From Sulfolobales archaeon Acd1 (GTDB lineage: Archaea; Thermoproteota; Thermoprotei_A; Sulfolobales; Sulfolobaceae): DNA of 64,000 nucleotides. Position 1 is the first letter of the stretch. Each line of letters begins with the position of its first letter. The notes beneath the pieces are model-generated. The model saw only the letters and a list, made by a program, of their open reading frames with translations. It was not told the DNA's origin and made no database searches. This document shows positions 52,566 through 57,116 of this stretch, piece by piece. Where the stretch lies: contig APJY01000001.1 of assembly GCA_000389735.1 (NCBI GenBank), forward strand, positions 248,001 through 312,000, written 5' to 3'. A program made the translations under genes and the position numbers.

Positions 52566-53493
52566 TACCGATTACCTTCTCCCACAAATGAGGGTGCTCC
52601 TTGCTAAAAGGCTTAGGCGTGAGGGGTACAGCCAGCTAAGGATAGCCCAGCTCCTGGGGGTTAGCCAACCCGCGGTTAAGAACTACCTAAGCGAGGACGA
52701 GGAGGAGGTGCTGAGAAAGCTGGAAGGCTATGGGATTTCCAGGGATGAGGTCGAGGGCTATGTGGACGAGCTCGTGAGGGTGATAACCGCCCACGACGTT
52801 CCTTCCGCCATGAGTTACGTAACTAGGTGGTCCCTTAGGGTGCTCTCCAGCCTGAAGCTCTGCGACTTTCATAGAGCCATAGACCCAGAGGTACCGAAAT
52901 CGTGTGACGTGTGTAAGCTCCTTTACGTGAAGGACGAACTCCAGGAGCTGAACGACGCGGCAGCCCTACTCTCGAACGAACTCATTACGCCCCTGATCCC
53001 GGAAGTGTTGAGCAACTTAGCCTATGCGAAGGAGAACGCGGAGACTATCAATGACGTCGCGGCCTTCGAGGGAAGGATAACCAAAGTGAGGGGCGTGCCC
53101 ACGCCGGCCTCTGGCCCGGCCTGGGGAGCCAGCGTGCATTTGGCGAAGGTCTTACTGAAGGTCATGAAAAGGGACAGGATGACCAGGGCGGTCATGAACG
53201 TGAGATATGATGAGGTTATAATGAGAACCGTGAAGGCTTTAGGCCTGGCCTTCGCGGTGGCGGGTCCCCAGGACTGGGCCAGCGACGATGAGATAGCAGA
53301 AGCGGTTTACAGGGCTTTCAGTCCCGGCACCGAAGTGGTCTTCCACTTGGGCGGCAAGGGCCTTGAGCCCGTGACTTACGTCTTCGGCCCCAACCCGATA
53401 GCTGTAATTAAAAAAGTTCTAGAAATAGGGAGAAAATACAGGGAGCTTATCGAAAGTGAAAAGGCCGAGAATAATACCAGATCTAGCCTATGA
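52540..53493 (+). CDS. thiR: ThiR: HTH plus ThiN-domain repressor of thiamine genes
   Basis: About 317 residues. The N-terminal helix-turn-helix (LRREGYSQLRIAQLLGVSQPAVKNYLS) is followed by a linker with CDFHRAIDPEVPKSCDVC and a C-terminal ThiN-like domain (VPTPASGPAWGASVHLAKVLLKVMKRDRMTRAVMNVRYDE, FHLGGKGLEPVTYVFG). In archaeal ThiR the degenerate ThiN domain senses thiamine phosphate. Family members have a 'YVLPxIRxxLAKEL' helix at the very start; here LITDYLLPQMRVLLAKRL matches, so the start must lie before ATG 52588, and GTG 52540 is the nearest. That start overlaps the divergent NurA-like gene by 26 nt. ThiC, ThiN and ThiI are in this window. Confidence 0.85.
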   Translation: MPRTPLYLITDYLLPQMRVLLAKRLRREGYSQLRIAQLLGVSQPAVKNYLSEDEEEVLRKLEGYGISRDEVEGYVDELVRVITAHDVPSAMSYVTRWSLRVLSSLKLCDFHRAIDPEVPKSCDVCKLLYVKDELQELNDAAALLSNELITPLIPEVLSNLAYAKENAETINDVAAFEGRITKVRGVPTPASGPAWGASVHLAKVLLKVMKRDRMTRAVMNVRYDEVIMRTVKALGLAFAVAGPQDWASDDEIAEAVYRAFSPGTEVVFHLGGKGLEPVTYVFGPNPIAVIKKVLEIGRKYRELIESEKAENNTRSSL

Positions 53494-53529
53494 AACACTA
53501 ATCTAGCCGAGGACTCCCAGAAACAAGCG

Positions 53530-53697
53530 ATGTCCTCGATAAACGACGTGGAGGAGCTTTTGAAAAAGGTGGAGGAGGCCGTAAAGGACCTCAAGGTAGC
53601 CTCGTCGGACAAATCGATTCTGGAAAACGTTCTCATCAAGACTATGGAAATCCACGCCGATCTTTATGCGAAGTATATTAACTTAGGAAAGGCTTAG
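53530..53697 (+). CDS. 55-residue helical protein
   Basis: The frame ATG 53530 to TAG 53697 encodes a charged, probably two-helix peptide (MSSINDVEELLKKVEEAV at the start, IHADLYAKYINLGKA at the end). Codon choice (AAG, GAG, GTG) matches the neighbours, and it fits exactly between thiR and the next gene (16-nt gap). The family is not recognised. It may form a small coiled-coil dimer. Confidence 0.65.
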   Translation: MSSINDVEELLKKVEEAVKDLKVASSDKSILENVLIKTMEIHADLYAKYINLGKA

Positions 53698-53713
53698 AGC
53701 TTTTGGGGAGGCC

Positions 53714-54304
53714 TTGTTCCAGACGTTTTTTAACTCCCCCAGTTATCCCGGGGTGAAGATTCTAACGTCCTCTGGGAACCTGATCACGCTCTCCCCGAAC
53801 TTAGCATACAGCCTAACCTCCAGAGGACAGGACTTGAAGGCGCTGGCGAACTTTATAGACGCCTACGTAACGGAAGGGGAACCGCCTATATTCTGGACGA
53901 GCGTTGGCGTCCATGAGAATGAAGGGGACTGTCTTAACGGCGTGCTCTTCCTAACTGAGCTATTCGCTAAGTACAACAGGCTCGACCTCTTCGTGATACT
54001 CTTTAAGGATTTAGCAATCGCCTTCGTCCCCGAGGCCAGCGGGGACGCGGCCGAGTTCGTCCTTTCGAACCTGGCGGGCTGTCGGACCGTCGATATGCTC
54101 TACGTCTACAAGTTCTTCCCCCTGGAGCTCATGTCGAAGGCCTTGAAACTTGACGAGGGTAAGGTAGAGCTGAGGAGCGACAATACGTTCGTCTTTATGG
54201 GCAAGAACCTGTCGGTAGAGTGGACCTTCGAGGCTAACAAAGTGACGCTCTCGGTTAAGCCTAAGTACTTCGAGGGTTCACTCAATCGAAGTGAAACGTC
54301 CTAA
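53714..54304 (+). CDS. Unknown protein, 196 aa, co-transcribed with membrane proteases
   Basis: Soluble mixed alpha/beta protein without signal or membrane segment (FFNSPSYPGVKILTSSGNLITLSPN, FWTSVGVHENEGDCLNGVLFLTELFAKYNRLDLFVILFKDLAIAFVPEA). I do not recognise it. TTG 53714 is preceded by GGGGAGG, supporting the start. Its 3' end overlaps the site-2-protease-like gene by 14 nt, so it is translated together with it and could be a substrate or adaptor (inference). Confidence 0.72.
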   Translation: MFQTFFNSPSYPGVKILTSSGNLITLSPNLAYSLTSRGQDLKALANFIDAYVTEGEPPIFWTSVGVHENEGDCLNGVLFLTELFAKYNRLDLFVILFKDLAIAFVPEASGDAAEFVLSNLAGCRTVDMLYVYKFFPLELMSKALKLDEGKVELRSDNTFVFMGKNLSVEWTFEANKVTLSVKPKYFEGSLNRSETS

Positions 54305-54941
54305 ACCGAGGCCCCTAACAGGTATAGGCGAAGTCACAAGCTTCATCCTCGCCATCCTCTCGATAAGCGTCTATTTCATCGTAGCTGACCTCCTAAGCCT
54401 ACAAGGCCTTCAAAACGCCATTTACTCCGTCGTGATCCCCATAGCGGCCGCCGCCGTAGCCATAGTGCCTCACGAGCTGGCCCATAGGTTCGTCGGGAGA
54501 TCTATGGGATGTTTCGCTAGGTTCGCCCTGGACGAAAGGGGCTTCGTGATGACCACCTTAATCAACGTATTCTTAGGTTCCCTTACGTACTTCGGTCTGT
54601 ATATCGGGGGCGTGTTCTTCTCAGGCTATACGATAGTGTCGTGCCCATTCAGAGGATTCTACGGCTTCAGGACGCCCAATGAGGGCTTAATAAAGGTCGC
54701 GGGGCCGATAACTAACATAGCGCTCGCACTACTGTCCATAGCCCTTTACGAAGCGATACCAATTAAAGGCGCGGTAGCCTCCTTCATAGTTTATTCGGGC
54801 GCGTTGAACGCCTGGGTAGCGTTCTTCAACCTACTCCCTTTCGGCCCCTTGGACGGGAGGGGAGTGATAGAGTGGAACAGGACAGTGTGGCTACTCCTAA
54901 TCGTAATAAGCGTGCTAATTTGGGCCTTCTACCCCATTTGA
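54291..54941 (+). CDS. Site-2 protease-like membrane metallopeptidase (M50)
   Basis: 216 residues, about six membrane segments. The zinc motif HELAH (residues 61-65, HExxH) lies in a helix, GPITNIALALL follows the usual 'GP..N' helix, and FGPLDGRGV (Asp188) gives the third ligand. M50 enzymes cut transmembrane segments, often to release a regulator. It starts with GTG within the preceding gene. There is no PDZ domain. A rhomboid-like protease is encoded 9 nt downstream. Confidence 0.87.
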   Translation: MKRPKPRPLTGIGEVTSFILAILSISVYFIVADLLSLQGLQNAIYSVVIPIAAAAVAIVPHELAHRFVGRSMGCFARFALDERGFVMTTLINVFLGSLTYFGLYIGGVFFSGYTIVSCPFRGFYGFRTPNEGLIKVAGPITNIALALLSIALYEAIPIKGAVASFIVYSGALNAWVAFFNLLPFGPLDGRGVIEWNRTVWLLLIVISVLIWAFYPI

Positions 54942-54950
54942 GGGTCTACG

Positions 54951-55517
54951 ATGAGGTTTCCCGGCTACCTGCCCACGCTCCTGTTAATGACTGCGGTGGC
55001 CCTCGGGTTCGTTTTGACCTTTACCCTCCCTCCAAGCGAGGTACTTTCCCTAGAGCTATATAACAGGGCCGTGACCTATTACGGTCAGTATTACGAGCTA
55101 CTTAGTGCAGTTTTCGTTACACCTTACTTGTCGGATGTATTCTTCAACGAGGCCTCCCTCGTAGTGATTTACAGTTTCTTCAGAGGCGAGGCGGGTTGGA
55201 GGGAAGTACCGTGCTTCCTCCTAGGAGGGGCCGTGGGCAATTTAGCCACAGTTCTGCTGTTGCCTCCTGACACCATCTCGAGCGGGGCCTCGGGAGGCGT
55301 GATCGGACTCCTCGGGTATTACCTAGCCAGGGATGCCCTGATCAGGGGAGGATCGCTGAAAGGCTTGGTGGTGGCGGCAGCCTTCCTCGGTTTCGTAATA
55401 ACCTTCTCCTCGCTCCTTTTCTCCAACGTGAACAACGTAGCCCACGTGTTCGGTGGACTTAGCGGGATGCTCTGCGGCATCTCGGACTATTTGTTTTATA
55501 AACGGCACAACGGATGA
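54951..55517 (+). CDS. Rhomboid-like intramembrane serine protease
   Basis: 188 residues, six membrane helices. TISSGASGGVIGLLGYYLARD holds the GxSG nucleophile (Ser114), and NNVAHVFGGLSGM the catalytic His165. The L1 loop is weakly conserved, so this is a diverged member. Rhomboids cleave single-pass membrane proteins. It lies between an M50 protease and a small two-helix membrane protein. Confidence 0.85.
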   Translation: MRFPGYLPTLLLMTAVALGFVLTFTLPPSEVLSLELYNRAVTYYGQYYELLSAVFVTPYLSDVFFNEASLVVIYSFFRGEAGWREVPCFLLGGAVGNLATVLLLPPDTISSGASGGVIGLLGYYLARDALIRGGSLKGLVVAAAFLGFVITFSSLLFSNVNNVAHVFGGLSGMLCGISDYLFYKRHNG

Positions 55518-55540
55518 GCTAAGTTTCGACTGAAGCGATA

Positions 55541-55708
55541 ATGCTCGATTTCCACTTGATTGAGGAAGCGCTTATAGTTATAGGCATAGTTACATTACCC
55601 TACGGAATCTACGAGGTTCTAAAGGGCGGAGGGACTAGGAAGGCTAAAGCTGTGTTGATTGGTATATCGGTAGGCCTATTTATAGCGGAGCTCTTGCTGA
55701 CCTTGTGA
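55541..55708 (+). CDS. 55-residue two-helix membrane protein
   Basis: ATG 55541 to TGA 55708. One hydrophobic helix (EEALIVIGIVTLPYGIYEVL), a short basic glycine loop (KGGGTRKAK), then a second helix (AVLIGISVGLFIAELLLTL). The stop overlaps the start of the AK6 gene (GTGA). Its place after the rhomboid gene suggests a partner or substrate; the family is not recognised. Confidence 0.7.
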   Translation: MLDFHLIEEALIVIGIVTLPYGIYEVLKGGGTRKAKAVLIGISVGLFIAELLLTL

Positions 55709-56151
55709 TAATAATAGTAGCCGGCACCCCCGGGACGGGTAAGTCGACTGTAGCCAGGGCTTTAGCCGAGAGGTACGGCATGTGCTATTTGAACGTCTCG
55801 GATTTCGCTATATCGAGGAGGCTTTACACCGACTTCGACGAGGAGTCCAGGAGTTACGTCATAGACGAGGAGAGGCTAGTTGAGGAGCTCAACGGGTATC
55901 TGGGATCCAGAGATTACGTCGTGGAGACCATTTATCCCTCGCTCGTGAGGAGGGCGGATAAGGTACTCGTCCTGAGGAGACACCCTAAGGAGTTATGGGA
56001 GGAGCTGACGAGGAGGGGATGGCCTTTAGCTAAGGTCGCCGAGAACGTCGAGGCTGAAGTCCTGGGGGTCGTGAGTCAAGAGGCTAGGGAGAGCTTCGGT
56101 GAGGTTTGTGAGATAGACGTCACAGGCATACAGCAGGTTCGTGAGCTATAG
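55705..56151 (+). CDS. AK6/Fap7-type nucleotide kinase
   Basis: 148 residues. P-loop VAGTPGTGKSTVARALAERYG at the N terminus, then NVSDFAISRRLYTDFDEESRSYVIDEERLVEEL and a VLVLRRHPKELWEELTRRGWPLAKVAENVEAE region as in AK6 (hCINAP/Fap7). The family acts in small-subunit ribosome maturation and has adenylate kinase/ATPase activity. It is slightly short for the family. It begins with GTG overlapping the small membrane gene. Confidence 0.88.
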   Translation: MIIIVAGTPGTGKSTVARALAERYGMCYLNVSDFAISRRLYTDFDEESRSYVIDEERLVEELNGYLGSRDYVVETIYPSLVRRADKVLVLRRHPKELWEELTRRGWPLAKVAENVEAEVLGVVSQEARESFGEVCEIDVTGIQQVREL

Positions 56152-56204: not shown

Positions 56205-57116
56205 GTGAGCAACAATCCCTTCAGGATAACGGCCCCCACAGGAGGAGGTACTCAAGGTAAACAGCCCAGGGACTTGAGGAAGGCCGCTCCTCCAGTTCAG
56301 GCGGTCGATACGAAGATACAGCTTAGAATGAAATCCGTCAAGTACAAGATAGCGGTACTCAGCGGGAAGGGTGGGGTAGGCAAGTCCTTCGTTTCCTCAA
56401 ACCTTGCGGTAGCTTTGGCTGCTGCAGGCAAAAAGGTAGGCATCCTGGACGTGGACTTCCACGGCCCTTCAGTGCCTAAGATGCTTGGGCTCAGGGGCCA
56501 GATGCTTACCGCGGATGACAAGGGGATAAACCCCGTGGTGGGCCCGTTCGGCATGAAGGTAGTCTCGATAGACTTCCTCCTCCCTAGGGACGACACGCCA
56601 GTGGTCTGGAGAGGTTCGATAAAACACTCTGCGATCAGACAGTTCTTGGGCGACGTCAACTGGGGGGAGCTCGACTACCTGGTCCTCGACCTACCGCCTG
56701 GAACGGGGGACGAACCCCTCTCGGTGGTGCAGCTGGTCCCTAACTTGACGGGTATAATCATCGTCACTATCCCCTCAGAGGTCTCGACGCTCGCGGTCAG
56801 AAGGTCGATAAACTTCGCGAGGACGGTCAACACCAGGATACTAGGAGTAATAGAGAACATGAGTTACTTCGTGTGCCCCAGCGACGGTAAGAAGTACTAC
56901 GTATTCGGAGAAGGGAAGGGCAAGAAGATGGCGGAGGAGATGGGCGTACCGTTACTCGGGGAGATCCCGCTGGACCCATCAATTGCGGAATCCAACGACC
57001 TCGGCGAGCCGTTCTTCCTTAAGTACCCCACGAGCCCTGCGAGCCAGGAGTTCGTCAAGATAGCGGACAAGGTAATCAAGATCGTTGAGGAAGGCGGAAC
57101 AGGAACTTCCTCCTAG
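56205..57116 (+). CDS. Mrp/NBP35-family Fe-S carrier-like P-loop ATPase
   Basis: 303 residues. Residues 1-45 are a Gly/Pro/Lys-rich tail, then the deviant Walker A VLSGKGGVGKSFVSSNLAVALA, LDVDFHGPSVPKML, VVWRGSIKHSAIRQFLGDVNWGELDYLVLDLPPGTGDE. In the family a CPxC in 'NMSYFxCPxC' bridges a 4Fe-4S cluster; here it is NMSYFVCPSDGKKYY with only Cys224. It may use other ligands or have lost cluster binding. The start is GTG. It overlaps a convergent small gene by 41 nt. Confidence 0.92.
   Translation: MSNNPFRITAPTGGGTQGKQPRDLRKAAPPVQAVDTKIQLRMKSVKYKIAVLSGKGGVGKSFVSSNLAVALAAAGKKVGILDVDFHGPSVPKMLGLRGQMLTADDKGINPVVGPFGMKVVSIDFLLPRDDTPVVWRGSIKHSAIRQFLGDVNWGELDYLVLDLPPGTGDEPLSVVQLVPNLTGIIIVTIPSEVSTLAVRRSINFARTVNTRILGVIENMSYFVCPSDGKKYYVFGEGKGKKMAEEMGVPLLGEIPLDPSIAESNDLGEPFFLKYPTSPASQEFVKIADKVIKIVEEGGTGTSS

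Follow-up and report, generated by a model that had tools for sequence, protein, structure and literature searches.

Two predicted intramembrane proteases, a compact M50-type metalloprotease and a rhomboid-type serine protease, are encoded next to each other in the Sulfolobaceae and also occur together, at unlinked loci, in Thermoproteus. As far as can be judged from sequence, the adjacency in the one lineage and the unlinked co-occurrence in the other suggest that the pair works together. The reading that we favour, tentatively and at somewhat less than an even chance, is that the cluster represents a dedicated Sulfolobaceae unit of intramembrane proteolysis, in which the two enzymes would share substrates, the rhomboid would cut before the M50 protease, and a further protein of the cluster, u196, would act as a partner of the latter. 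The window, i.e., the whole stretch of DNA that was analysed, is a 64-kb part of a 1.5-Mb, 8-contig genome whose closest relatives are Sulfolobaceae, and the features of the locus are collected in Table 1.

Table 1. Features of the protease locus, in window coordinates.
Feature	Position	Strand	Remarks
Conserved element	53465..53515	+	approximate place, ~50 nt upstream of h55; AATAC[CT] core, degenerate here
h55, 55 aa	53530..53697	+	soluble, predicted two-helix protein
u196, 196 aa, TTG start	53714..54304	+	without TM helix
Compact M50/site-2-protease-type metalloprotease, 216 aa, GTG start	54291..54941	+	predicted intramembrane, without PDZ domain
Rhomboid-type serine protease, 188 aa	54951..55517	+	predicted intramembrane; sole rhomboid of the genome
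tm55, 55 aa	55541..55708	+	predicted two-TM hairpin, basic loop
Adenylate-kinase-like P-loop kinase (AAA_18, putative archaeal kinase)	55705..56151	+	overlaps tm55 by 4 nt
Mrp/NBP35-type P-loop ATPase	56205..57116	+	next conserved member of the block

An earlier note on this DNA had described five tightly packed open reading frames, from h55 to tm55, and all five are present in that place and on the same strand, with spacings between -14 and 23 nt. In particular, h55 and u196 are separated by 16 nt, u196 overlaps the M50 gene by 14 nt, and the rhomboid gene lies 9 nt downstream of the latter and 23 nt upstream of tm55. The five genes thus stand as a cluster, but the block does not stop at tm55 and goes on, beyond what the note had noticed, with the kinase and Mrp/NBP35 ATPase genes. 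Given its direction and 4-nt overlap, the kinase gene is probably in the same operon as tm55, and the ATPase is probably an unrelated housekeeping protein. A TrmB-like regulator follows the ATPase gene, and an HTH-ThiN protein is encoded upstream of h55. The three proteins that had been called unknown, u196, h55 and tm55, indeed have no credible match in Pfam or NCBIfam.

Gene order, which the note had proposed as a check, was followed in 31 Sulfolobaceae genomes of 11 genera by locating each cluster member with a profile, and 25 of them were found to have the same five orthologues in unchanged order. All five genes, the 55-residue reading frames included, have a dN/dS below 0.3 in the pairs where it was computable. 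Such purifying selection marks h55 and tm55 as real genes, and together with the order shared by 25 genomes it indicates that the cluster is not due to chance. The u196 gene is next to the M50 gene in all 31 genomes; the rhomboid is present in 29, where it is the only rhomboid of the genome and always adjacent to the M50 gene (one copy being split by an insertion sequence), at a spacing of -11 to 38 nt, with 4-nt stop/start overlaps in several loci. Two rearrangements are informative. In genus g9 (G008, G016), u196 and M50 are kept together, the rhomboid and h55 are absent, and tm55 is found elsewhere, still overlapping the kinase gene. In strain HS-7, M50 and rhomboid remain adjacent, u196 is still beside M50 in divergent orientation, tm55 is 1.2 kb from the rhomboid, and the kinase gene is on the other strand. 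Thus, the linkages that outlast rearrangement are u196-M50, M50-rhomboid and tm55-kinase.

Both proteases look catalytically competent on the basis of their sequences, and the catalytic residues named in the earlier note proved correct. Indeed, H61, E62 and H65 (HELAH) and D188 (LDG) of the M50 protease are invariant in 25 of 25 aligned sequences, as is the D188-G189 pair, and all 22 intact rhomboid sequences share S114 (GASG) and H165 without exception. The M50 protein has about six hydrophobic segments, one of which (41-59) precedes the HExxH motif. Its divergence is such that the window copy, with 25.3 bits, falls slightly short of the Pfam Peptidase_M50 cut-off of 27.2, which most relatives exceed when neighbouring in-frame stretches are included. 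The closest solved relative is mjS2P of Methanocaldococcus jannaschii (MJ0392, PDB 3B4R), with a profile match (E=1.3e-7) that spans the region of the LDG aspartate; the two share the HExxH, LDG and GP..N motifs and several TM segments. Compared with mjS2P-type M50 site-2 proteases (S2Ps), the protein described here is compact (216 aa), has neither a PDZ nor a CBS domain, and is always accompanied by u196 in Sulfolobaceae. Every Sulfolobaceae genome also encodes a second, larger M50 protein of about 360 aa, represented in this genome by one of 355 aa that appears, as judged by eye, to bear a PDZ domain. In genome G004, the M50 gene (L061:8085-8756) repeats about 20 residues (INILPVFGLVFFSGYTLL) of a membrane segment, in frame and almost exactly; its sister L070 lacks this duplication, which may be an assembly artefact.

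The rhomboid scores 47.7 bits in its window copy against a Pfam Rhomboid cut-off of 22.6. A rhombosortase model gives weak matches in 21 of the 22 rhomboids, with the window copy below the model cut-off. Averaged hydropathy resolves four clear segments, the family criterion being six TM helices, and the protein consists of a minimal core with no extra N-terminal domain. It shares the GxSG serine and the C-terminal AH histidine with GlpG, rhombosortase and Haloferax RhoII; unlike RhoII, which carries an AN1 zinc finger (PMC4343526), it has no added N-terminal domain and is encoded alongside an S2P. The rhomboid is dispensable, since genus g9 has none and one Saccharolobus-type copy is broken: in that genome (G014, L071:6881-8321), an insertion sequence of about 1.4 kb, with terminal inverted repeats and a 321-aa transposase, interrupts the gene.

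Among the genomes searched, u196 is confined to Sulfolobaceae, with no profile match in 166 other genomes of the order, and it is not near M50 or rhomboid in the Thermoproteus gene neighbourhoods examined. AlphaFold2 (AF2) models of the window copy and of a relative have pLDDT values of 87.7 and 92.6, respectively, and share one secondary-structure order; neither fold finds a match at E<1e-3 in PDB or viral libraries. Recurrent weak matches to longin/Mon1-Ccz1, PAS/GAF and RnlA stayed below significance, and the idea that a beta-alpha-beta4-alpha (TBP-like) unit is duplicated within the protein, prompted by the order of secondary-structure elements, was dropped as profile comparison of the two halves found nothing. 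The most conserved positions (M137, Y141, F146, F149, F152, G162 and W184 in L062 numbering) fall mostly in one helix and its flanks, which could form a binding face.

In a phylum sample of 398 genomes, searched with thresholds that define the Sulfolobaceae types of both proteases (E<=1e-60 for M50, where the next best match has 1e-49, and E<=1e-58 for the rhomboid, where it has 1e-27), the only outsiders with both types belong to Thermoproteus. Five of six Thermoproteus genomes have both proteases, one has M50 alone and none has the rhomboid alone (M50 loci L273, L275, L277, L279, L281 and L282; rhomboid loci L272, L274, L276, L278 and L280, the last with an ambiguous match to the histidine pattern); the two proteases co-occur in 29 of the 31 Sulfolobaceae as well. 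The genes are far apart or on different contigs in Thermoproteus, where three of the five genomes are single contigs, and in the latter the neighbours of both genes are unrelated. In the trees, the Thermoproteus proteins group with those of Sulfolobaceae with support of 98/96 for M50 and 100/100 for the rhomboid, with the inner branching unresolved. Both proteases were apparently transferred between the two lineages, in one direction or the other, and the Thermoproteus genomes represent one or two such events and not five independent cases; a Fisher test of co-occurrence over genomes was discarded, Thermoproteus being a single lineage. Being free of linkage, this co-occurrence is better evidence than gene order for a partnership of M50 and rhomboid. 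The earlier note had regarded separate genes in relatives, or catalytic residues that are not conserved, as grounds for giving up the two-protease unit: neither was found within Sulfolobaceae, and outside the family the genes are apart, yet both proteases still co-occur.

As a rule, rhomboids cleave a transmembrane segment close to its outer side, and the stubs that remain are targets of S2Ps. In the reading that we favour, both proteases of the cluster would act on common membrane substrates. Most likely, the rhomboid would cut first, close to where a transmembrane segment reaches the outer face, and the M50 protease would then cleave the membrane stub left over, or small membrane peptides, towards the cytosol. 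The protein u196 would act on the M50 protease from the cytosol, whether as partner, as sensor or as gate. In this way a membrane protein could be shed and then cleared or released, and tm55 and h55 would probably be co-expressed accessories. A bolder version, in which the rhomboid is the site-1 and the PDZ-less S2P the site-2 protease of an archaeal pathway, acting on the same substrates under the control of u196 and exchanged with Thermoproteus as a pair, appears rather unlikely. A weightier alternative, still less probable than the favoured reading, is that M50 and rhomboid, each with its own substrates, are mere neighbours in a housekeeping block that is conserved and co-transcribed (HTH-ThiN protein, kinase, Mrp, TrmB-like regulator). 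Indeed, the whole block, functionally unrelated genes included, is conserved in most genera, and adjacency alone is weak evidence because the block also holds such genes. The loss of the rhomboid from g9 and its disruption in one strain fit this alternative, as does the finding that M50 stands alone at the other Thermoproteota loci examined, with no coherent conserved neighbours outside Sulfolobaceae. However, the rearrangement in HS-7 leaves the M50-rhomboid adjacency intact, and Thermoproteus possesses both proteases even though the genes are not adjacent.

The small membrane protein tm55 is present in all 31 Sulfolobaceae, with invariant P20-Y21-G22, E8 and E50. Other members of the order gave no credible match to it, and it was not found in the six Thermoproteus genomes with the same model that recovers the 31 Sulfolobaceae copies. 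A weak Pfam match to CdaA_N (1.6e-4, 2 of 23 sequences) was rejected as chance. In almost all genomes, including those of g9 where the proteases are elsewhere, tm55 overlaps or closely precedes the kinase gene, and the two may possibly form a separate pair.

The earlier note had proposed tm55 as a possible substrate of both proteases, and here the two parts of its claim diverge: the gene cluster is real and conserved, the link between its two proteases goes beyond their being neighbours, and a two-protease unit is plausible, but tm55 as their shared substrate is not supported. That tm55 is a dedicated substrate from which a peptide or fragment is released as a signal would agree with its position as the next gene downstream of the rhomboid in 28 of 29 rhomboid-bearing genomes (at spacings that range, where measured, from a 4-nt overlap up to 23 nt), with the helix-breaking P-Y-G conserved in its TM1, and with the degradation of small membrane proteins by the S2P RseP (PMC10470546). 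Yet g9, which has no rhomboid, retains tm55 at a place away from M50; the protein is also separated from the rhomboid in HS-7 and missing from the six Thermoproteus genomes; moreover, its tight conservation over the whole length is more like that of a working protein than of a scissile one. An obligate substrate is disfavoured because the surviving linkages join u196 to M50, M50 to rhomboid and tm55 to the kinase, and we regard this role as improbable. Improbable, too, is a role of tm55, or of u196, as a regulator of M50 in the way that BofA and SpoIVFA keep SpoIVFB inactive. An S2P gene accompanied by genes for a soluble partner and for a small protein with two TM helices does resemble the SpoIVFB arrangement (PMC9042235), and u196 is strictly linked to M50. 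On the other hand, Pfam searches and fold comparison found no relation of tm55 or u196 to SpoIVFA or to BofA, the inhibitory membrane partner of SpoIVFB, and tm55 of g9 is not linked to M50.

The partnership that we prefer has partial precedents in bacteria. In Bacillus subtilis, the rhomboid YqgP and the protease FtsH act on MgtE in quality control with a division of labour (PMC7231995), which offers a case of a rhomboid that cooperates with a second membrane metalloprotease, as would the M50-rhomboid pair; the partner of YqgP is an AAA protease, whereas that of the present rhomboid would be an S2P. For the S2P side of such a division, RseP with its breakdown of small membrane proteins (PMC10470546) serves as a precedent. 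The pair also recalls the bacterial DegS-RseP system acting on RseA, in that two membrane proteases, one of them an S2P, may act in sequence. It differs in that the proposed first protease is an intramembrane rhomboid, and in that no membrane-anchored regulator or anti-sigma-like substrate was seen: none of the genes of the block is a candidate for the former, and both flanking transcription factors appear soluble. A literature search found no description of an M50-rhomboid-u196 cluster, and the main text of the S. islandicus essential-genome paper mentions neither rhomboid nor protease. What S2Ps and the majority of rhomboids do in archaea, and which proteins they cut, is unknown (PMC4343526). 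Against this background, it is of interest that in the genetically tractable Sulfolobaceae the sole rhomboid goes together with one specific S2P and a lineage-specific partner. The natural losses of the rhomboid provide controls for whether two intramembrane proteases work in sequence, and their sequential action is to be expected not from gene order alone but also from the co-occurrence in Thermoproteus.

At the upstream end of the cluster, h55 occupies its place in 25 of the 31 Sulfolobaceae genomes, and no copy was found in genus g3 or genus g9; a weak single-member Pfam match to Relaxase_C was rejected as chance. An AATAC[CT]-like element precedes h55 by about 50 nt in nearly all of 19 aligned genomes (e.g., at loci L078, L061 and L067). 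In genera g5, g6 and g11, the element takes a 26-nt near-palindromic form that occurs once per genome in 13 genomes, always just upstream of h55, and that is a perfect dyad in Saccharolobus-type genomes. The 26-nt pattern had no control matches and, being drawn from the h55 sites, cannot prove that a wider regulon is absent. In the same three genera, a divergent 838-aa MMPL/RND-family gene is inserted between the HTH-ThiN gene and h55 (L078:3888-6398 and equivalents). In HS-7, h55 has been relocated to a place immediately before the TrmB-like regulator gene (L200:6337-6978), which in other genomes marks the end of the conserved block.
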